This document shows positions 10,118-45,843 of a stretch of 46,203 bases of DNA, piece by piece. The notes under the pieces are model-generated. The model made no database searches and had not been told where the DNA came from. It saw only the letters and a program-made list of their open reading frames with translations. This stretch comes from a virus. The translations under genes and the position numbers were made by a program. Location: positions 1 to 46,203 of the IMG/VR virus record IMGVR_UViG_3300026473_000020. The stretch is one strand, 5' to 3'. How positions within the stretch are numbered: the first letter of the stretch is position 1; each line of letters starts with the position of its first letter.

Positions 10118-12377
10118 TATTTTTTATGTTTCAAAAAATTCCATTAACGACTATAACTGGAACTCAGTCAAGTCAAAATATCCCACAGCTAGAAAATTTG
10201 AAAACATAAATTCTTTTGATCAATTAAAAAAACAAGCATTTACTAAAATGTTTTGGGTTGTGTGGGACGACCTTACCTTATTAGACAATCTTAATTTAAA
10301 CACATACAGAGCTACCCAGTGGGACGATATGTATGTTCATGTATTTAAAAATAGTGATCATTACGACGGAGTTTGTTTATTTCCTAAGTCAGTTACAATT
10401 TCTCAAAGAGAATTTGATAATCGGTTTTTTACAGATAAAAAAGAAATAGATATTGTTGCTAGTATTCCACTAGGATATGATAAATTTAATATTACAACTT
10501 ACGATGATTATCTAAACGCTGTTGAACAATCAAGTACAGACATGTTTTGGGCAATTTGGCCTGATGTAAATGTCAAAGAAGATTTTAAATTTAATTATAA
10601 AGTTCCTAAGCATAATTCTAATATTGTTCATATTTTTAAAAATGGAGAATTTTTTGACGGCATTTGCTTATTTCCAAAAAATGTAAAAGTTTCTAAGAGA
10701 GAATTTTATCATAGATTTTTTGCAGAAAAAAAAGAAATAGATATTGTTGCTAGTATTCCAAAACAATACAACATCTATTCTCCTAAAACATTTGATGAGT
10801 ATAAACAAATTACAGACGATATGTTTTGGATTGTGTGGCCTGAGGTAAAAATTATTAACAATGAAATTTTTGATTTATATTTTAGCCATCACAATACCTA
10901 TGACAGAAGAGAAAATCATGTTTTTAAAAATTTGTGTAATTACGACGAATCTTACCTAAGCGGAATTTTGTTATGCAGCAAATTTAAACCTTTAACACAA
11001 GAAGAGTTTGATAAACAATATCCTACTGATAAAAAAGAATATAATATAATCGCTAGTAAATTTCAATATCCTATATATACAATCACATCTTACGAGCAAT
11101 ATTTAGATATATGTAAAACTGAATCTCAAAATATGTTTTGGTGTGTATGGCCAGAAATTAAAATATTAGATGATAAACTATTTGATTTGTATTTTGATCC
11201 AAATAGTGGGGCATTTGATTATGATAGAAAAGAAAATCATGTTTTTAAAAATTTATGTAACGACAAAGAATCTTTTCTAAACGGTGTAGTATTATTTTCT
11301 AAAGAAAAAATCATATCTAAAAAAGAATTTAATAGAAGATTTTTAATTGATAAAAAAGAACATAATTTTGTAGCAAGTCGTTATGCGTATCCTGTTTACA
11401 ATATTGATACTTATGACGATTACAAACAAATTATAGACACCGAATCTCAACCTTTATTCTGGGCAATTTGGCCTGAAATAGAAATTATTGATTCTGAAAT
11501 TTTTAATTTATATTTTGAACCTAATAATGGCGTATATGATTATGATAGAAATATCAATCATGTATTTCAGCATAAATTTAGAAACGAATTAACATATAAC
11601 GGATTGATGTTAATGTCTACATCAACGCCAGTTAGTCCTAAAGAAATTGATTTTAGGTTTTTAATTAATAAAAAACAATATGAACAAGTTGTTTCTAAGC
11701 ATAAAGACTATGATATAATATTTGTAAGTTATAACGAACCTAATGCTGAAGAAAATTATAATAAACTAATTAACAAATTTCCAAGAGCTAAACGAGTACA
11801 TGGTGTTAAAGGTATTCATCAAGCGCATATAAAGGCAGCTGAACTTGCCACAACAGACATGTTCTGGGTTGTTGATGCCGATGCACATATAATAGATGAT
11901 TTTAATTTTAATCATCAGGCAACGCGATACGAAAAAGATGTTGTTCATGTGTGGAGAAGTAAAAATCCAATAAATGATTTAATATATGGTTATGGTGGAG
12001 TAAAACTATTACCAAGAAAATTAACATTAGATATGGATGTAAATACAGCCGACATGACAACATCGATTAGTAAAAAATTTAAAGCAATGCCGGAAGTCAG
12101 TAATATATCTGCATTCAATACAGATCCTTTTAATACTTGGAAATCGGCATTTAGAGAATGTGTAAAACTTTCTAGTAGAACAATTGCTGGACAAGTTGAT
12201 GAGGAAACACAAAAGAGATTAGACATATGGTGTTCTGTAGCAAAAGACAAATTTGCTAATGATGCACTTAGCGGTGCAATTGCAGGACGTAAGTACGGAG
12301 AAGAAAATAAAAACAATCCAGAAGCCCTTGCAAAAATTAATGATTTTGATTGGTTAAAAACACAATATGGAATTTAA
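10110..12377 (+). CDS. Glycosyltransferase with five degenerate tandem cores
   Basis: A 755-residue protein. The C-terminal part (from about 532) is a paralog of the preceding GT: YDIIFVSYNEPNAEENYNKL, RVHGVKGIHQAHIKAAELAT, then MFWVVDADAHIIDDF with an intact DxD at 589-591. Upstream are five tandem units whose MFW (LFW in the fifth) occurs at residues 47, 145, 238, 342 and 449, each followed by W-[DP]-[DE] where the real domain has D-A-D. Each is also followed by HVFK and a [FLM]-x-[KST]-rich stretch, then KKEIDIVAS-like ends. The repeats therefore look like catalytically dead copies of the GT core, roughly 100 residues each, perhaps a substrate-binding or spacer array. The repeat lengths vary (93-107). 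Confidence 0.7.
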   Translation: MYDIFYVSKNSINDYNWNSVKSKYPTARKFENINSFDQLKKQAFTKMFWVVWDDLTLLDNLNLNTYRATQWDDMYVHVFKNSDHYDGVCLFPKSVTISQREFDNRFFTDKKEIDIVASIPLGYDKFNITTYDDYLNAVEQSSTDMFWAIWPDVNVKEDFKFNYKVPKHNSNIVHIFKNGEFFDGICLFPKNVKVSKREFYHRFFAEKKEIDIVASIPKQYNIYSPKTFDEYKQITDDMFWIVWPEVKIINNEIFDLYFSHHNTYDRRENHVFKNLCNYDESYLSGILLCSKFKPLTQEEFDKQYPTDKKEYNIIASKFQYPIYTITSYEQYLDICKTESQNMFWCVWPEIKILDDKLFDLYFDPNSGAFDYDRKENHVFKNLCNDKESFLNGVVLFSKEKIISKKEFNRRFLIDKKEHNFVASRYAYPVYNIDTYDDYKQIIDTESQPLFWAIWPEIEIIDSEIFNLYFEPNNGVYDYDRNINHVFQHKFRNELTYNGLMLMSTSTPVSPKEIDFRFLINKKQYEQVVSKHKDYDIIFVSYNEPNAEENYNKLINKFPRAKRVHGVKGIHQAHIKAAELATTDMFWVVDADAHIIDDFNFNHQATRYEKDVVHVWRSKNPINDLIYGYGGVKLLPRKLTLDMDVNTADMTTSISKKFKAMPEVSNISAFNTDPFNTWKSAFRECVKLSSRTIAGQVDEETQKRLDIWCSVAKDKFANDALSGAIAGRKYGEENKNNPEALAKINDFDWLKTQYGI

Positions 12378-39589: not shown

Positions 39590-39597
39590 TATTTATC
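39590..39597 (-). promoter_or_regulatory. T4-type late promoter box (candidate)
   Basis: GATAAATA followed by TATTATAGG on the - strand, 38 bases before the ATG at 39551. It overlaps the stop codon of the upstream gene. The same GATAAATATAT form occurs at 21381-21388. Confidence 0.55.
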
Positions 39598-39850
39598 TTT
39601 TTATGGCAGAGCCGCCACCGAAGATATTAGTTTTCATATCTAGGGCATTTTTAGCTGTACCGTCCTTATTTTTTGCTTGTTTTACTTTAGGAACTGCTGG
39701 TGCTTTTGTACCAGATTTGCCTGGGCTACCTGTGTAGCTTTTATTTCCACGATCTTTTCCTATAGCAATATGAGGGCTAACAACCGTGCCGATATTAGCC
39801 GATGATGTTGCTCCTGCTGTAGCTGATTCTAAAATATCACGTATTTTCAT
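39593..39850 (-). CDS. Small internal-protein candidate, ILE|S start
   Basis: An 85-residue protein: MKIRDILES at the start (I6-L7-E8|S9, prohead-protease-like), then SANIGTVVSPHIAIGKDRGN, SYTGSPGKSGTKAPAVPKVK, NALDMKTNIFGGGSAIKR. It is Gly/Lys/Ser-rich with little regular structure, and I recall similar small proteins in marine T4-like phages. GGAAAG precedes the ATG, and an AATAAATA box 7 bases upstream may be chance because it overlaps a stop codon. Function unknown; packaging in the head is inferred from its N-terminus and neighbours. Confidence 0.68.
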   Translation of the reverse strand: MKIRDILESATAGATSSANIGTVVSPHIAIGKDRGNKSYTGSPGKSGTKAPAVPKVKQAKNKDGTAKNALDMKTNIFGGGSAIKR

Positions 39851-39856
39851 AATATA

Positions 39857-40057
39857 TTATTTATTCTTTCCGCTTTTCATATTTGCACACCAGTGATACA
39901 TTTTAGATTTCTCACCCGATGCATTTTTTGCACGTTTGCGTAGATCAGTAACTGAACCAGAACAACTAGCCCCTGAACGTTTTACTCTTCCGGGGCGGCT
40001 TTTTCCTTTAACTTTTCCGTCAGCAAAGTTTTCTATAACAAACTCTTTAGCTCTCAT
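39857..40057 (-). CDS. Small basic protein with MYHWCANMK motif
   Basis: A 66-residue, strongly basic protein: MRAKEFVIENFADGKVKGKS, RPGRVKRSGASCSGSVTDLR, KRAKNASGEKSKMYHWCANM. Its N-terminus (V-I-E|N) is of the capsid-targeting kind. The S-x-TDLRKRAK and Y-H-W-C blocks recur, in my memory, in many marine phage small proteins. It is ATGA-coupled to the HAD-GH19 gene. The high Arg/Lys content suggests DNA contact inside the head. Confidence 0.7.
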   Translation of the reverse strand: MRAKEFVIENFADGKVKGKSRPGRVKRSGASCSGSVTDLRKRAKNASGEKSKMYHWCANMKSGKNK

Positions 40058-41223
40058 CTCATTGCTACCTGGAAAGCCTGATGCTTTTCTTTTCTAGAGT
40101 CTAAATGTTTAAGCCCGGGATTGATAGTTTTAGTAACCGCTTTAGTATCTTTAAAACTATCAATTTTTGGTGCTACTCTATTTTTCCAATACCAAACTGC
40201 TACTTTAGCAGCAATTTCTGGTTTTTCTACAAGTTCGGGTTTTTGCTCTAACGGCAATCCTAATGCTTGGCCTGCTTTCTTATAATTGTCTCGACCTGTC
40301 AGCTGTATGTATCCGCGACCTTTATATTTTGCTCCGTCTCCAACATTTTTATTACCCAATGCTTTTGCTTTTTTAGGAGCATATTTAGGATCATATTTTC
40401 GAAAGTCTAATGATCCGCCTATTTCTTTCATGTGTTTAAAATCTAAAGTTTCGTGAGCGCATTGTGCTAAAAACGCTGTAAGCTCGTGACCTACTATACC
40501 TGCTTTTTCAGCAGCCTTTTTTAAGTAGACTTCGTGGGGATTACCGGTTACGCTTTTTGCAATATCTTTTTTAGATACCTGTTGAATAACATCCGGTTTA
40601 GAATGTTTAGCATTAGCATCACTAGGAGCACCGAATGCCATTGCAGTTCCTAGTGCCCCGGCTGCTGCCCAGTCCTTCCATCCCTCGTCAACTTCTCCCT
40701 TAGCAGCAGTTTTTAATGCAGAAAAGACTTTAGATAAACTATCTTCGTCTGCTTGATACTTAATAGCAATACCGCCCGCTTGTTGCCAAGCACGAATGTT
40801 TACACCGTAATCGTCAATAAGAATATTAGGAGTACCGTCAGCATTTTTTGCATATTTGTATTTTTCGTGTTCGAATATAATTTTGTCAGCAGGAACATGA
40901 ATATGTTTTTTCAGCCATTCACGTTTACCTCTAATGCTTCCTTCTTTATCAAAGTTTAATGGGCTGCTTAAAATATTATAACCACCTGCATAATCAACTA
41001 CTATGCTTAAAAGTTTATTAGCAGTAGAAAATGCCGGAAGGTCACGAAATAATTCATAGGCATTAGAGTCTTTAAAAAATGTTTCCCATTGATCTTTTGT
41101 CATTTTATTGTAGTGCTCTACATCATGTAAACCTCCTACATGATTAAAAAGATCAGCAAGGACTCCGTCCATATCAACATAGACTTTCATTCCTTTGGGT
41201 AAACTAAACTCTTCTGCTCTCAT
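40054..41223 (-). CDS. HAD 5'-nucleotidase fused to GH19-type lysozyme
   Basis: A 389-residue two-enzyme protein. Residues 1-170 are a HAD 5'(3')-deoxyribonucleotidase: VYVDMDGVLADLF (D17, D19), a cap helix region, NILIDDYGVNIRAW (D137, D138). Residues 225-389 are a GH19 chitinase/lysozyme-type domain: AFLAQCAHETLDFKH (E258, general acid), DGAKYKGRGYIQLTGRDNYK and AVWYWKNR. Between them is EVDE|GWK (180-183) followed by a hydrophobic segment AAAGALGTAMAFGAPSDANA (186-205), which resembles a signal peptide ending A-N-A|K. The N-terminus [10 protein letters not shown] matches the other internal proteins. It may be split during head maturation, with the lysozyme half made export-competent. Cytoplasmic HAD plus exported lysozyme in one gene is unusual. 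Confidence 0.8.
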   Translation of the reverse strand: MRAEEFSLPKGMKVYVDMDGVLADLFNHVGGLHDVEHYNKMTKDQWETFFKDSNAYELFRDLPAFSTANKLLSIVVDYAGGYNILSSPLNFDKEGSIRGKREWLKKHIHVPADKIIFEHEKYKYAKNADGTPNILIDDYGVNIRAWQQAGGIAIKYQADEDSLSKVFSALKTAAKGEVDEGWKDWAAAGALGTAMAFGAPSDANAKHSKPDVIQQVSKKDIAKSVTGNPHEVYLKKAAEKAGIVGHELTAFLAQCAHETLDFKHMKEIGGSLDFRKYDPKYAPKKAKALGNKNVGDGAKYKGRGYIQLTGRDNYKKAGQALGLPLEQKPELVEKPEIAAKVAVWYWKNRVAPKIDSFKDTKAVTKTINPGLKHLDSRKEKHQAFQVAMR

Positions 41224-41294
41224 ACTGGACTATATGGATTTAGAGGACGATCCCATTCGCCTTCTTGTGGTGGATAAACAGGATACTCGTTCAT
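41220..41294 (-). CDS. 24-residue micro-ORF coupled on both sides
   Basis: An open frame of 24 codons (ATG at 41294, TGA at 41220). Its start overlaps the stop of the iron-sulfur carrier as ATGA, and its own stop overlaps the start of the HAD-GH19 gene as ATGA. The product starts [16 protein letters not shown] and ends in LNPYSPV; it is Pro/Tyr/Trp-rich and probably unfolded. The exact double coupling is the main sign that it is translated. It may act mainly as a translational bridge. Confidence 0.55.
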
Positions 41295-41614
41295 ACTGCA
41301 AAACTACTTCCACAACCGCAGGTTGTTACTGCATTAGGATTTTTGATAGTAAAACTTGATCCCATTAATTCTTCTTTATAATCTATCTCTGCACCGTGTA
41401 GATATTGCATACTCATTGCGTCAACTAATACTTTCCATGCACCGCAATCAAATTCAAAGTCATCTTCGTTTTGTTCGTCGTCAAAGGTAAAGCCGTAACT
41501 AAATCCACTACATCCGCCACCTTGTACAAAGGTACGAAGTTTTAAATTAGGGTTTCCCTCTTCAGAAAGCAAATCTTGAATTTTTATTTTTGCTGATGGT
41601 GATATTGTAATCAT
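41291..41614 (-). CDS. erpA: A-type iron-sulfur carrier (ErpA/IscA-like)
   Basis: A 107-residue A-type carrier of the IscA/ErpA/SufA family, which passes Fe-S clusters to target enzymes. The three cluster cysteines are in place: C35 in [10 protein letters not shown], and C99 and C101 in TTCGCGSSF. The core [20 protein letters not shown] and [20 protein letters not shown] is typical. This is an auxiliary metabolic gene, possibly for host Fe-S supply or for the phage's own radical SAM proteins. It lies in the internal-protein string, one base after the stop of the previous gene. Confidence 0.9.
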
Positions 41615-41819: not shown

Positions 41820-42445
41820 TATGCTGTGGCTGGTTCGCCTGTACGAGAAACTTCCCATTTCTTGCCAGTCTGTTCAGTTTTCTTACGGCACATGTCTTGC
41901 AATCTACGAAGCTGAGCCATTTCTCTGTGATCGTCTGCGTATGTTCCTTGACCAGGAAACACTTTCCATTTTTTACCGTTGATATAGATAGCAAAGTTAT
42001 TTGGTGGTTCGGTGTTGCCCTCGTCCCAATCATCTTCTCTATTTCTACGTCCAAATCCGCTTACGCTACTATCGTAATCTCTTTGATAAGCATCACGTCC
42101 AAAACCTGATTCTTTCATAGGATCCTTTCCTGCCTGTACTTTTTTATACCATGAAATTAATTCAGCATCACTAGCAAGTTCAAGATAGTTTATTTCCCAG
42201 TCCATCTTTTTAGCTAAGAATTGAATAATTTGTTGTCTTTTAGATCTATCTAATAAACCTTCTGTTACTTCTGCTGGTTTTTTATGTTTTTCATATCCTT
42301 GTTTTTGTGCCTTCTTCATATCTTTATGAGCACCGGCACCTGAGATAACACTTTGTGCAGCATGAGCTACAGGGTTTCTAGGTTTGACATTATACACTTT
42401 TGCTCTTCGGCTTTTCTTATGTTCTAATATATCAGATATTTTCAT
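41819..42445 (-). CDS. Probable virion-interior protein, DILE|H start
   Basis: A 208-residue protein in two parts. Residues 1-62 begin MKISDILEHKKSRRAKVYNV and are basic and Ala/Lys-rich up to AEVTE|G (60-63), a protease-like site. Then a folded region follows: LDRSKRQQIIQFLAKKMDWE, ISWYKKVQAGKDPMKESGFG, and a C-terminal block NNFAIYINGKKWKVFPGQGT, GKKWEVSRTGEPAT that I recall as a separate domain in T4-like phage proteins. ATGA-coupled to the large polyprotein upstream. Role: likely packaged structural or accessory protein. Confidence 0.68.
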   Translation of the reverse strand: MKISDILEHKKSRRAKVYNVKPRNPVAHAAQSVISGAGAHKDMKKAQKQGYEKHKKPAEVTEGLLDRSKRQQIIQFLAKKMDWEINYLELASDAELISWYKKVQAGKDPMKESGFGRDAYQRDYDSSVSGFGRRNREDDWDEGNTEPPNNFAIYINGKKWKVFPGQGTYADDHREMAQLRRLQDMCRKKTEQTGKKWEVSRTGEPATA

Positions 42446-45400
42446 GATGATCTCTTTTGTTTAGGACCCTTACGAGTTTTCCATTTTTTATCAGTGGAAC
42501 ACCAATAGCGTCCATATCCTTCTTTTACTTCTTTCTTTTTAGGATAACCGTGTTTTATTTCTAGTTGATAACCCTGTAATCCTTGTTTATCTAAAACCTT
42601 ACTAATAAATTCTTCGGCTTCTTTCGCAGAAGAAAATTTATCACCTAAATTATATTTCCTCATTTCGCCATCGATCATTACATAGGCAATAGTAATAGGT
42701 TTGACTGGTTCTTCTGCCGCCTGTGCCGGACTTGCTAATAAATTAGCAGCAGCTAAAGCTGCGCCTGCCGTTTTACTTTTCCAACCTTCTTCAACGCTAT
42801 CAATCATTGGATCAATACCGCGACTTCGGATTCCACCTTTTCTTCTTACTTTAGCAAGTTCTTCTAAGGCATGACGAATTTGTTCTACATTCATTTTAAG
42901 TTCGTCAAATTGTTTGGCCATGTTTTGCCATTCGTATGGACTAGCATTGTCTACTCTGCTAGCAAGATCTTTAATTTGTCCAGCTGCTCTCATCATTCTA
43001 TATTTTAACTTCGCTGGGTTGGCTTTGTCATGGCTATGAATCATAGGATTCATTGGTTCGGAAGGATCCATTTCAATCGGTGCTTCAGATATGCTTTCTT
43101 GAATACCCATGCCCTTGCGTGTGAAATCCATTAATTTCATAATCCAATCTTTCCCTAATTTTTGAACATCAAAACCTTGAGACCATAATGCAAATTGCTG
43201 TTCTGGAGTAGCATTAGGATCTTTTAAAATGTTACGTAATTTAGTAAAACTCATTCCAGTTCCGCCAGTTTCGGCAGCTCTTGGTGTAACTTCTACATCA
43301 AATTTAACATGTTCAAATCCTGGATATTTAGGATTCTTCATCCTTTTAGATAAATGCTCCATCCATTTTTTAAATCCTTCATATCGATCTTCGCCAACCA
43401 TAACAATGATATGATCGTATGGAGGAGGATTACTTGATGTTACTAATTCTTTTTCAATTTTTTTCATAACTAATCCACCTTCTTGGATCAGCTGGAACAT
43501 GGCCTTCTTTTCTGGATATAATTTTTGCCATGTTTGTAATTTAACAGAAGCTGGAATAGGATCGTCTGGTCCCACGGCACTACTAATATAAACATAAGGA
43601 TCAGCATTTAACTGAGACGCTTTGTTTAAAACAAAATCTACAAGTTGTTGATGTCCAATGTGCCCAACAAAACTTCCTGCGGTAACGACAGCAGTTTTGC
43701 CCGATCTTCCATCGCCTGTTGCTCCAGGAGGTCTTGCAGATTTAATTGCTGCGTTTTTTGCAGAAATAATATCTTTTTGTTCTTGACTAGTAATTTTAAC
43801 AGGACCATTCTTTGTGTTAAGAATAATGCCTTCATAATCTTTGCCTAACTTATCCTTTCCTATAATATCTGGATGTTGGATGATAAATTTTGCTAGATAT
43901 TCTTTGACAGGCTGCAATGCTTCGGTAGCTTCTTTTTTAAGATCTCTTTTACCGCTATTAACTAACGATCGTAATGTTTCAAGATTTTCAATGGGAGGCA
44001 ATGCCCCAGTTACATCTAAACTGCCGTTAGTAGTTAACGAGTTGTCAATGAACATTGTTGTTCCAATGCGACCAATTTTTCTCAATGCAGAGATGTATTT
44101 GTCGCTATTTGGATGTTGTTCGCCAGTTGAGCTTTTTTCAGCAAACAATGGCACAAGTGCTAGAGTAACACCTTCGGGCAACTTGTCATAATGTATGCCA
44201 ACAAATTTTAATTTACCATCTTCTGTTTCAGTAGCAAATGGTAGATATAAAACTTCACAATGAATTTTTACATCATTGAGAGCGGTATTACCTAATTTTT
44301 GATCAACGTTAGCAATGACATGCATCATCTCGTCGTATAGATCATCAAATAACTTAGCCCTAGCTTTTACATCTGGAGCGGCTTGTCTTTCTTCAGCATG
44401 TTTGCTGAATGTACCAGGTTCAAACTTAGGACCACTACGACTAGTTTCCATATATGGTTTGCCAGATTTATCTTTACCAAACCTAGCACCAAACCCGTCT
44501 ACTTTAACGGTCATTGGAACATTGTGTAATTCAAATTTTCCTGTTGCTGAATTTTTTAATTCGTCTAATAAATTTAAAAAATCAGAATCCTTCATTTTTT
44601 CTAAATGAACAATTCCTTTTCTTTTACTTTGTACTACTTCGGCTTCGTTAATACTTTCGGATACTTTGTAACTTGCTTTATAATCTTGACGCATTTGTTC
44701 AAGATTTTTATGAGGTGTAACGTTTAAAGTTTTTAATGCATAGTTAAGTGCTGTATTTTTTTCTAAGATATCTCTTTCAGGATCGCCTTTATATAATCCT
44801 TGTGCGCCAGGAGCATATAGCTTATCAATAAATGCATCAATGACTTTTTCCTTTTCATCCTGAGGAACAACAAGATTCATAATTTCTAATAATCCTGTAA
44901 AACTCCATGTCTTAGGAAGAAGTTTTTGTATTTCTGTTTCTTTAACTCTTTTACCAAATATGTTTTGGAAAATTTTTCCAATATTCTTTTCGTAACCACT
45001 TGCTGGCAACGCCCTCATAACAGGAAGACCGTCAATTTCTAAAGGCTGTCCGGCATCGTCTAATACTGGTTCATATTTAGGACGAAGGCCTCCGCCTTCT
45101 TTGCTACTAACAGCAAAAGAAAACATATTGTCTGTTGTTGGAACATCTTGTTCAACTCTAGCTTTACCTCGGCCAACCATTTTTCTTAATAAAAAATCTT
45201 GGCTTGTTAATCGTGTAAATGATTGAATTAGATACTTGTGAAATACACCTTTGATACCTTGGCTTAAATCTTCCCAGCTACTGCTATGACTAAATCCTGC
45301 CCAATCAGTGGGTTCGTCTTTTTCATAATCTACAAATTCAAGATCAATCTGTACCTTAATAGGAGGATCAGTTAACTCCCACATTGTACTATATTGTTCG

Positions 45401-45843
45401 TTGCCTTTACTAAATCCAATTAATTTTCCATTGCCAACAACTTTACCTGTTGAGGATTGTAAAAATTGAACAAGTTCTCCTGCATATTCTTTATTAATTT
45501 GTGTATCTATATCGCCAACTTTAGGTTTAATACGTTCAAACTCGTCGTCGGGTAAGTCAGTATTAAAAAAATGTAAACTAGATCCGCTTAAGAATTTTTT
45601 ACTTGCTAAAACTTTTTTATTCCAAAGTTCGTGACCAACTGATGCAGTAAAACTAGAATTAATTCCGTTTAATAATTTGTCTAATATTGGAACAATATAA
45701 GAACGCTTGTGAACTTTAAGATCAATTTGCTGAGCTTGATGGTCACCGGTATCTCCTTGCCAGCCAGGGCTTTGAGTCGAAAGGTTTCCACCTTCTATAA
45801 GAGGTAAATTATTTCTCTTGTAGAATAATTCTAAAAGTTTCAT
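42442..45843 (-). CDS. 1133-residue multienzyme protein: NTase, ligase-like, NMNAT-like
   Basis: A very long protein with separate modules. Residues 80-170 carry a pol-beta-type nucleotidyltransferase pattern (SGSSLHF at 86-92, GDIDTQI at 110-116, QIDLEF at 165-170 with three acids). Residues 440-700 look like an ATP-dependent RNA/DNA ligase: KVDGFGARFG (Lys447, motif I), HCEVLY (528-533, motif III), YEGIIL (670-675, motif IV), VKIT (692-695, motif V). Residues 717-880 are NMNAT/cytidylyltransferase-like: GSFVGHIGHQQL (HIGH 728-731) and GMSFTKLRNIL. The C-terminus has EEGWK then an Ala-rich signal-like segment (1025-1044). Protease-like sites are LIE|G (17), SINE|A (400), SISE|A (920), VEE|G (1019) and VKE|G (1108). 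It may be cleaved in the prohead into enzymes carried with DNA. The ligase and NMNAT parts lack proof of activity. Confidence 0.8.
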   Translation of the reverse strand: MKLLELFYKRNNLPLIEGGNLSTQSPGWQGDTGDHQAQQIDLKVHKRSYIVPILDKLLNGINSSFTASVGHELWNKKVLASKKFLSGSSLHFFNTDLPDDEFERIKPKVGDIDTQINKEYAGELVQFLQSSTGKVVGNGKLIGFSKGNEQYSTMWELTDPPIKVQIDLEFVDYEKDEPTDWAGFSHSSSWEDLSQGIKGVFHKYLIQSFTRLTSQDFLLRKMVGRGKARVEQDVPTTDNMFSFAVSSKEGGGLRPKYEPVLDDAGQPLEIDGLPVMRALPASGYEKNIGKIFQNIFGKRVKETEIQKLLPKTWSFTGLLEIMNLVVPQDEKEKVIDAFIDKLYAPGAQGLYKGDPERDILEKNTALNYALKTLNVTPHKNLEQMRQDYKASYKVSESINEAEVVQSKRKGIVHLEKMKDSDFLNLLDELKNSATGKFELHNVPMTVKVDGFGARFGKDKSGKPYMETSRSGPKFEPGTFSKHAEERQAAPDVKARAKLFDDLYDEMMHVIANVDQKLGNTALNDVKIHCEVLYLPFATETEDGKLKFVGIHYDKLPEGVTLALVPLFAEKSSTGEQHPNSDKYISALRKIGRIGTTMFIDNSLTTNGSLDVTGALPPIENLETLRSLVNSGKRDLKKEATEALQPVKEYLAKFIIQHPDIIGKDKLGKDYEGIILNTKNGPVKITSQEQKDIISAKNAAIKSARPPGATGDGRSGKTAVVTAGSFVGHIGHQQLVDFVLNKASQLNADPYVYISSAVGPDDPIPASVKLQTWQKLYPEKKAMFQLIQEGGLVMKKIEKELVTSSNPPPYDHIIVMVGEDRYEGFKKWMEHLSKRMKNPKYPGFEHVKFDVEVTPRAAETGGTGMSFTKLRNILKDPNATPEQQFALWSQGFDVQKLGKDWIMKLMDFTRKGMGIQESISEAPIEMDPSEPMNPMIHSHDKANPAKLKYRMMRAAGQIKDLASRVDNASPYEWQNMAKQFDELKMNVEQIRHALEELAKVRRKGGIRSRGIDPMIDSVEEGWKSKTAGAALAAANLLASPAQAAEEPVKPITIAYVMIDGEMRKYNLGDKFSSAKEAEEFISKVLDKQGLQGYQLEIKHGYPKKKEVKEGYGRYWCSTDKKWKTRKGPKQKRSS

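Follow-up and report, generated by a model that had tools for sequence, protein, structure and literature searches.

The window analysed here, the whole 46,203-nucleotide IMG/VR virus record IMGVR_UViG_3300026473_000020, carries on its minus strand (positions 42442-45843) a single unbroken open reading frame (ORF) with an ATG start that encodes a protein of 1133 amino acids. The explanation that we favour, with a probability of roughly 0.78, is that this protein is a cargo polyprotein that would be packaged into the phage head, cut by a protease, ejected into the host and engaged in the repair of nucleic acid ends. The N-terminal leader would bring the chain into the prohead core, by analogy with the capsid-targeting sequence of the T4 internal proteins, and the S77 prohead protease would cut after [LIV]xE at head maturation, removing the leader and freeing a Pol-beta nucleotidyltransferase (NTase), a bifunctional enzyme with a ligase-like and a HIGH domain, and small C-terminal units. 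These pieces would be ejected along with the DNA and would act ahead of any phage gene expression, most likely mending nucleic acid ends, those of RNA (tRNA) more probably than those of DNA.

Judged by gene content, the window is part of the genome of a T4-like bacteriophage, an assignment made because a 219-kb contig with the same ORF run (G001) has genes for the capsid protein gp23 (E 3e-98) and for a prohead protease of the S77 family (E 1e-25). The identical 1133-residue protein is present at full length in four other contigs (L002-L005), one of them of 219 kb. Profile scans of the viral collection identified 154 relatives of the NTase module (the best 80 were used), 116 of the ligase (the best 80 were used) and 12 of the HIGH domain. 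Merging by identical 50-residue stretches yielded 96 groups, among which related phages remain, so that the relatives are non-independent. The counts below rest on the 77 groups in which a single ORF contains the three modules, 7 of these ORFs being cut at one contig end. Of the 19 groups left out, 4 are named phages, 3 are pieces of the same phage as the window, and 12 have fewer modules in one ORF or are cut. The order NTase, ligase, HIGH is the same in all 77 groups, in fused proteins of 908 to 2135 amino acids (n = 70 with both ends), which bears out the claim of an earlier, sequence-only reading of the window that three nucleotide-handling modules share this frame. PHROGs also matches three stretches of the window protein (residues 15-384, 429-571 and 713-919).

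The NTase module was modelled with AlphaFold2 from 78 sequences at a mean pLDDT of 95.2. Its best Foldseek match is DNA polymerase beta (probability 0.99, E 7.9e-3), and the rows of the VIA comparison are led by DNA polymerases mu, lambda and beta, the best being Pol mu (Z 8.4, root-mean-square deviation (rmsd) 3.7, 175 residues aligned) with terminal uridylyltransferases (TUTs) close behind. G87, S88, D111, D113 and D167 are invariant in 78/78 rows. With the modelled fold, the G-S pair and the three acidic residues in place, the module is assigned to the Pol-beta superfamily, the fold scores being modest. A fold search of BFVD gave 2 matches below 1e-3, both without names, and a search for cellular homologues gave 87 stretches that fit two short patterns, among them one true relative; it lies on a contig of a T4-like phage that had been placed in a metagenome bin. 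Membership in RlaP, whose Pfam model we take to be PF10127, was considered and rejected, no RlaP being found among the 24 Pfam families listed for the 78 members (E 0.5), although a distant relationship is conceivable.

The model of the ligase and HIGH domains, built from 70 sequences, has a mean pLDDT of 91.9 and a pTM of 0.62 and therefore depicts two good domains that are loosely joined. For the ligase-like domain, Foldseek retrieves an archaeal ATP-dependent RNA ligase (5d1o; E 5.5e-4, probability 1.00, target TM 0.35) and a fungal tRNA ligase domain (9qw7; E 6.6e-4, probability 0.99, target TM 0.31), with DNA ligase 3rr5 also among the matches (probability 0.69). The signature of covalent nucleotidyltransferases, that is, KxDG (K447, D449, G450), the glutamate of motif III (E530), the EG of motif IV (E671, G672) and the lysine of motif V (K683), is invariant in 70/70 rows; for K447, D449 and G450, the 23 rows retrieved with a pattern that demands KxDG are uninformative, and the other 47 were retrieved via the NTase or the whole protein. 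RNA ligases are the best fold match of the modelled domain, and RNA joining is a candidate activity.

The HIGH domain resembles phosphopantetheine adenylyltransferase (PPAT; VIA Z 13.9, rmsd 2.7, 151 residues aligned), NadM (Z 12.9, rmsd 7.4, 168 aligned) and NadD (Z 12.3-12.4), and Foldseek returns NadD and PPAT at E about 1e-4. The FAD_syn profile matches 66/70 members weakly, and sequence searches of PDB yielded weak RibF matches at best. H728, H731 and R870 are invariant in 70/70 rows, S865 is present in 63/70 and T867 in 64/70, so that HxGH, S-x-T-x-x-R and the fold of a HIGH nucleotidylyltransferase are all found. Because NadD, PPAT, NadM and FAD synthetase match about equally, the domain is not nameable as a nicotinamide mononucleotide adenylyltransferase (NMNAT). 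According to the models, then, three nucleotide-transfer folds are present in one chain. Fold prediction and the Foldseek and VIA searches agree with the sequence-only reading on the NTase and the ligase-like module; of its NMNAT-like module the HIGH fold and motifs stand, whereas an NMNAT could not be told from PPAT, FAD synthetase or an enzyme of CTP-type specificity. Its motif positions (GSS 87-89, D111, D113, D167, K447-V-D-G, E530, E671-G672, G727-H-I-G-H731 and SFTKLR 865-870) are correct save for the motif V lysine, which is K683, residue 693 being an isoleucine, and the cut-type residues E17, E400, E920, E1019 and E1108 are present where it placed them.

The leader ends in [LIV]xE/G[GS]N (the slash marks the putative cut) in 73/73 relatives with a complete start, in keeping with the N-terminal L-I-E/G site proposed earlier. 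It is 9-22 residues long in 66/73; in the other 7 an extra module comes first and the site lies at residue 124-143. The linker between NTase and ligase contains [LIVMF]xE[AGS] in 65/77 proteins, compared with 13.4 expected from shuffled linkers, and in the remaining 12 a different residue stands behind [LIVMF]xE. The linker between ligase and HIGH, by contrast, has the strict motif in 0/77. Cut sites between and after the modules, and a split into separate enzymes, had been proposed; of the two linkers only the first conforms, with predicted release of the NTase, and because the second does not, two enzymes and three small units are expected rather than three enzymes, the ligase and HIGH domains probably staying joined as one piece. 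Cutting at five boundaries would give the 2.1-kDa leader and products of 43.0 (NTase), 57.7 (ligase-HIGH), 11.4, 9.7 and 3.0 kDa.

A pattern of selection is apparent inside the domains, where [LIVMF]xE[AGS] is depleted fourfold (57 sites seen, 214 expected). Control motifs with the glutamate replaced show no depletion (D, 316 seen and 256 expected; Q, 218 and 198; N, 306 and 177; K, 352 and 330), and two rearranged glutamate motifs show little (195 and 181 seen, 213 and 215 expected). The tails behind the common core hold 172 sites against 78 expected. Sequence that is conserved or biased in composition inflates the counts for linkers and tails, and the depletion within domains is therefore the cleaner signal. 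In the window protein by itself the cut motif gives a weak signal (9 sites against 4.5 after shuffling; the fourth-largest excess among the 228 ORFs of the 219-kb contig), and its strength comes from comparison with the relatives.

Homologues encoded by separate genes point in the same direction. Own leaders are found in 4/6 separate metagenomic ligase ORFs (L175, L178, L081 and L083, the last two near-identical): the L175 leader reads MKSFKSFVKE/N, and L178 starts with MGFEKYLQE/AEIAASKRKGI, to be compared with the internal site INE/AEVVQSKRKGI of the window protein, so that, from the sequences, the same ligase start is reached by two routes. The single separate HIGH ORF (L089) has its own leader, MLLSELFE/A. 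Campylobacter phages match the NTase part only, and the NTase of CP220 is a separate gene with a leader. In contig L227 the distance to gp23 is 4.1 kb from the end of a leader-bearing NTase gene and 1.1 kb from that of a leader-bearing ligase gene; a ferritin-like protein with the start MKSFTRFLNEE is encoded between the ligase gene and gp23 (10591-11019, minus strand).

In Stenotrophomonas phage Mendera and Xanthomonas phage X1, consecutive genes between the DNA primase and baseplate hub genes encode the NTase, a product with no match, the ligase and, by annotation, a cytidyltransferase/adenylyltransferase. With profiles made without these two phages, the NTase and ligase are matched at E 1.2e-55 and 2.9e-29 in X1 and at 9.9e-17 and 1.3e-18 in Mendera; their HIGH genes match profile A5 because both are in A5, and with profile NM2, made without them, they gave no match at E 1, so that only name and motif remain. 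In Vibrio phage Va1 the NTase has its own gene, and another gene farther along combines ligase-like motifs with a HIGH part (E 2e-7); the match of its ligase part is not significant, and kinship with the window ligase was rejected (hhalign probability 0.4 %), only motifs and gene order agreeing. The Mendera and Va1 proteins, and that of X1 as annotated, begin M-GGN without a leader, precisely where the leader would be cut off; in X1 an in-frame upstream start exists.

The S77 protease and gp23 that are encoded in G001 occur together in the same 9/14 further long contigs, two of which (G007, G012) carry separate module genes. In ten gp23 proteins the probable maturation junction, located from where it lies ahead of the mature capsid fold, consists of LxE and then S, A, N or T, and the motif of the polyprotein resembles this probable capsid-protein junction of the same phages. 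The ORF in the place of gp22 (assigned by position between the protease and gp23) contains 10 sites against 3.4 expected, the largest motif excess of the 228 ORFs of the 219-kb contig, and such an ORF has the top motif count in 9/9 short protease loci; in T4, gp21 cuts the core proteins into several fragments (PMC9026906).

Experimental evidence of packaging comes from cyanophage S-CREM2, whose gp154 cytidylyltransferase was identified by mass spectrometry of purified virions; its authors propose that gp154 may enter the host and favour an NMNAT-like role (PMC10665884). This protein, annotated in its record as 'virion protein', starts with MKNFSSFLTE/A and matches the HIGH profile at E 1.7e-12, and the S-CREM2 capsid protein reads LLTE/APTQ. 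Because of these virion proteomics our confidence that the window protein is packaged and cut was raised slightly, as was that in the explanation as a whole, and from sequence and analogy we now consider this very probable. Other S-CREM2 proteins described as virion-associated are two endolysins, an S-adenosylmethionine hydrolase, a kinase and a Cas9-type nuclease (PMC10665884).

Several observations weigh against packaging and cutting. The S-CREM2 result is the only experimental packaging evidence known here and concerns a stand-alone homologue, and its authors warn that non-structural proteins could be carry-over from CsCl purification (PMC10665884). An S77 match was not found in the contigs of L012 and L013 or in 5/14 further long contigs, which have neither an S77 protease nor a gp23 match. 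Control motifs are enriched as well: in the linker window [LIVMF]xK[AGS] is seen 70 times (19.6 expected) and E[AGS]x[LIVMF] 47 times (13.6 expected), and in the tails the reversed motif [AGS]Ex[LIVMF] is seen 146 times (80 expected). Two sites of the window protein, at residues 557 and 788, fall inside the ligase and HIGH domains, where they are presumably shielded by folding. The motif excess is not specific, the DNA ligase ORF being second in the contig (7 sites, 1.8 expected) and the whole 219-kb contig holding 282 sites against 222 expected. Clear leaders were not seen in the separate ligase ORFs L091 and L052, and the dependence among relatives, mentioned above, affects all family-wide counts.

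These observations have to be set against three alternatives. The protein could be an injected polyvalent protein that stays uncut, its glutamate motifs reflecting mere linker composition; such proteins, which carry their domains into the host in one chain, are described for plasmids and phages, and some are transferred at full length (PMC5512222), and the enrichment of some control motifs in linkers and tails would be in line with this. Depletion of the motif within domains (57 against 214), which the controls show hardly or not at all, the leader site in 73/73, the own leaders of several separate genes and the occurrence of the motif in 0/77 ligase/HIGH linkers make this quite improbable. 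Still less likely is a multi-enzyme of the infected cell's cytoplasm that is not packaged and whose leader is accidental: the leaderless homologues of Va1, Mendera and X1, those of Mendera and X1 lying between DNA primase and baseplate hub genes, speak for it, yet they start at the cut-off point, [LIV]xE/G[GS]N is found in every start-complete relative, and a leader-bearing HIGH homologue was seen in virions (PMC10665884). That the boundary motifs and the fold order are meaningless and due to chance deserves hardly any credence; the 9 sites against 4.5 expected in the window protein alone would allow it, whereas the family-wide tests (leader, linker, domain depletion, the mobile unit U4 described below, and the leaders of separate genes) contradict it. 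A packaged and cut cargo polyprotein accounts best for the whole.

What the cargo does is less certain. Repair of the ends of some nucleic acid is an even bet, and repair of RNA in particular, proposed because an RNA-ligase fold match lies beside an NTase of the polymerase-X/TUT type, is a tentative assignment that falls somewhat short of that. The repair role is weakened by the Foldseek scores of the NTase, none of which is below 1e-3, by the missing RlaP match, by the RNA_ligase Pfam model, which gives a single weak match among the 70 members (E 0.055), and by the ligase fold deriving from Foldseek and motifs, since the VIA rows cover the HIGH part only; a kinase-like AAA_33 domain is found in 4/10 contigs (one match below cut-off), the window's phage not being among them. 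A search for T4 RNA ligase 1 (PF09511) matched 0/10 contigs, and as its control also matched nowhere, it says nothing. Repair of DNA ends or gaps in the incoming genome, by Pol-X-like filling and ligation as in non-homologous end joining or base-excision repair, is in our estimate rather unlikely but a serious rival to RNA repair: Pol mu, lambda and beta head the structural rows and DNA ligase 3rr5 is matched with probability 0.69, whereas a DNA ligase is encoded elsewhere in the phage (PF01068, E 7.6e-23) and the best ligase matches are RNA ligases. Restoration of NAD+ following an NAD-depleting defence, with the HIGH domain as NMNAT, is less likely again and on balance improbable. It would agree with the fit to NadD and NadM folds, with the NMNAT-like role preferred by the S-CREM2 authors (PMC10665884) and with the phage NAD+ salvage already described (PMC9503650). 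All NadM phages are reported to have NadV as well, though (PMC9503650), and nicotinamide phosphoribosyltransferase (PF04095) was matched in only 1/10 long contigs of relatives, and not in the contig of the window's phage. This scarcity and the leaning of the profiles to FAD synthetase (66/70, weak) are the reasons why the NAD+ explanation was lowered, and it would leave the NTase and ligase unexplained. End repair, of RNA before DNA, is accordingly retained as the proposed role.

Each of the elements has been described already: leaders for capsid targeting, multidomain proteins that are injected, enzyme pairs for RNA repair and a cytidylyltransferase associated with virions. The sequence-only statement that no described phage system combines these activities was too strong, the three being near-neighbouring genes in the Stenotrophomonas and Xanthomonas phages, and injected polyvalent proteins (PMC5512222) and a packaged cytidylyltransferase (PMC10665884) having been proposed. 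The internal proteins and Alt of T4, cut by gp21, share the short N-terminal leader, a cut motif ending in E and delivery to the host, and foreign proteins fused to the capsid-targeting leader are packaged (PMC9026906, PMC3012670); T4 cargo genes are separate, whereas here several enzymes form one chain with internal cut sites. S-CREM2 gp154 has a homologous HIGH domain, a leader and virion detection, but is a stand-alone protein of 286 amino acids, and the leader is not discussed in the section on gp154 (PMC10665884). The 'cytidyltransferases' of P-SSM2, HTVC008M and Melnitz phages are likewise homologous to the HIGH domain (profile A5, E 4e-17 to 1.5e-21), and that of P-SSM2 starts with MKSFSQFLTE; they differ in being separate genes. 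A gene with a KWDG motif lies three genes upstream of the 'cytidyltransferase' in HTVC008M and two upstream in Melnitz-2. The cyanophage KWDG gene was rejected as kin of the window ligase (hhalign probability 0.6 %); only motifs and gene order agree.

Polyvalent proteins also combine many enzymatic domains, Pol-beta NTases included, in one phage polypeptide with predicted injection (PMC5512222). The window protein has several disparate enzymatic domains too, and it is the leader alone that suggests its injection. Processing of polyvalent proteins is, however, ascribed to zincin-like metallopeptidases and not to the prohead protease, their own NTase is a minimal form found mainly in firmicute mobile elements, and the available text of that article does not use 'amidoligase' or 'NMN' (PMC5512222). 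RlaP and phage RNA ligases place a Pol-beta NTase beside an ATP-dependent RNA ligase, with predicted nucleotide restoration before ligation, and a survey of jumbo phages predicts that such pairs mend tRNAs cut by host defence (PMC7824862); the window family differs in lacking an RlaP Pfam match and in joining NTase and ligase in one chain with a packaging-type leader. In SPN3US the prohead protease gp245 cuts head proteins after a motif ending in E, but 13/14 mapped cuts take off N-terminal propeptides and the remaining one is at the C-terminus of the protease itself, so that a cut separating enzymes within one chain is not among the 14 (PMC10052503). No example of several phage enzymes in one chain processed by the prohead protease turned up in the open-licence literature searched, which is no proof of novelty.

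Processing of polyproteins by a maturation protease is generally associated with retroviruses and the RNA viruses of eukaryotes. A head-loaded enzyme polyprotein would explain how large T4-like phages could carry many enzymes via a single targeting leader; it predicts exact cut sites and offers roles for phage proteins now termed hypothetical. A broader proposal, which we regard as doubtful, is that these phages run a general polyprotein cargo system, in which any enzyme joined after [LIV]xE would become cargo and maturation would free enzymes and bare N-termini, some of them export signals. Candidate Sec- or Tat-like signals, put forward with the same reserve, are residues 1020-1043 of the window protein, the endolysin of ORF 40054, and stretches in L037, L060, L092 and L104. 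If this were true, export signals would be hidden in the producing cell and active in the next host, and one chain could serve both cytoplasm and periplasm.

The features of the polyprotein gene and its surroundings are collected in Table 1.

Table 1. Predicted parts of the polyprotein and neighbouring ORFs in the window.
Feature	Positions	Strand	Remarks
N-terminal leader, residues 1-17 (MKLLELFYKRNNLPLIE)	45793..45843	-	Predicted capsid-targeting sequence, predicted removal at LIE/GGN
NTase module, residues 18-400, 43.0 kDa	44644..45792	-	Pol-beta superfamily; ends INE/A
KxDG covalent nucleotidyltransferase (RNA-ligase-like) domain, about residues 401-703	43735..44643	-	Foldseek and motifs
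HIGH-superfamily nucleotidylyltransferase (NMNAT/PPAT/FAD synthetase fold), about residues 711-920	43084..43713	-	Ends ISE/A
Mobile unit U4, residues 921-1019 (APIEMDP...DSVEE), predicted 11.4 kDa	42787..43083	-	Recurs in other proteins
Unit U5, residues 1020-1108	42520..42786	-	Begins with hydrophobic signal-like stretch
C-terminal basic peptide, residues 1109-1133 and stop	42442..42519	-	Same 25 residues in L007
Upstream ORF, 115 amino acids	45843..46190	-	Directly 5' of polyprotein gene; probably one operon
Downstream ORF, 208 amino acids	41819..42445	-	Internal VTE/GLLD unit
NT5C and GH19 endolysin ORF	40054..41223	-	Pfam NT5C, Glyco_hydro_19; joined across VDE/GWKDW and hydrophobic stretch
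85-residue ORF	39593..39850	-	Starts MKIRDILE/SATAGATSSAN

Beyond the common core, U4 has 43 matches, with [LIV]xE at the aligned position in 11/12 distinct rows shown, as judged by eye; the 12 include the L007 orthologue and the phage of the window itself. The L007 protein runs parallel to that of the window except that it is without the 89 residues of U5, whose ends in the window protein are VEE/G and VKE/G, and its copy of the C-terminal 25 residues stands right behind IEE/G. Outside the own phage U5 has one weak partial match only, other distinct matches of the C-terminal 25 residues were not found, and neither U5 nor the terminal unit (U6) has further clean sequence contexts. In the tails of the relatives, alignments start within 3 residues of a site in 47/404 cases, 17 being expected and 27 being the maximum of 300 random sets, the 404 starts being non-independent. 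Pfam families match 5/10 of the stretches beyond the core (nine tails and one N-terminal module) and none of the other 5. One tail combines an amidoligase, DUF6934 and a weak NTP_transf_2, another has LysM and phage lysozyme, and the remaining matches are HD_4, GP88 and, in the N-terminal module, a weak DUF6782.

The HD_4 domain (E 2.4e-17), a family that we take to include ppGpp hydrolases, lies in the tail of L162:1808-7567, and that of L042:7953-12761 includes a phage lysozyme domain as well as a stretch resembling LysM. Residues 1-140 of L148, L056, L107 and L108 form a domain with AHELxHA (HExxH-type) ahead of the NTase, for which L148 gives a weak match, below cut-off, to the metallopeptidase-type DUF6782. 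At about residue 1146 of L037:7935-12254, within a few residues after VAE/A, RRGFLKGLGAATLG resembles a twin-arginine export signal. For 10/69 internal hydrophobic runs a site lies no more than 22 residues upstream, compared with 8.2 % of random positions, and an excess of export signals next to cut sites was dismissed as unconvincing.

Sequences related to the late promoters of T4 were also considered. The sequence TATAAATA, which we take to be the exact T4 late promoter, occurs once in the window (7.1 expected), not at all in L004 (2.8 expected) and 5 times in G001 (L023-L033; 39 expected), where it is far rarer than base composition predicts. In G001 the heptamer ATAAATA, picked post hoc by heptamer counting, clusters 5' of ORFs and lies within 80 nucleotides upstream of an ORF start in 25/31 cases. 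One copy precedes the ORF run leading into the polyprotein gene, beginning 11 nucleotides before the start of the first ORF, which is outside the window in G001. This copy ends only 4 nucleotides from the first possible start codon, a spacing that is awkward for a promoter unless a later Met is the true start; late expression of the polyprotein gene would fit its position.

Among the neighbouring genes, the NT5C-endolysin ORF is a second candidate fusion of the polyprotein kind. The GH19 endolysin, with a hydrophobic N-terminal stretch after E/GWKDW, is found both there and in L007:13494-15104; the region joined upstream differs, being NT5C in the window and a stretch without Pfam match in L007. 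The VTE/GLLD unit of the 208-residue ORF is also found inside the L161 polyprotein, after VAE/G. An Fe-S_biosyn (iron-sulphur-cluster assembly) protein is encoded at 41291-41614 on the minus strand. The start of the 85-residue ORF repeats the probable capsid-protein maturation junction LAE/SATAGATSAGN, and a 593-residue ORF of L038 has a similar YTLESATSGAT close to its start.

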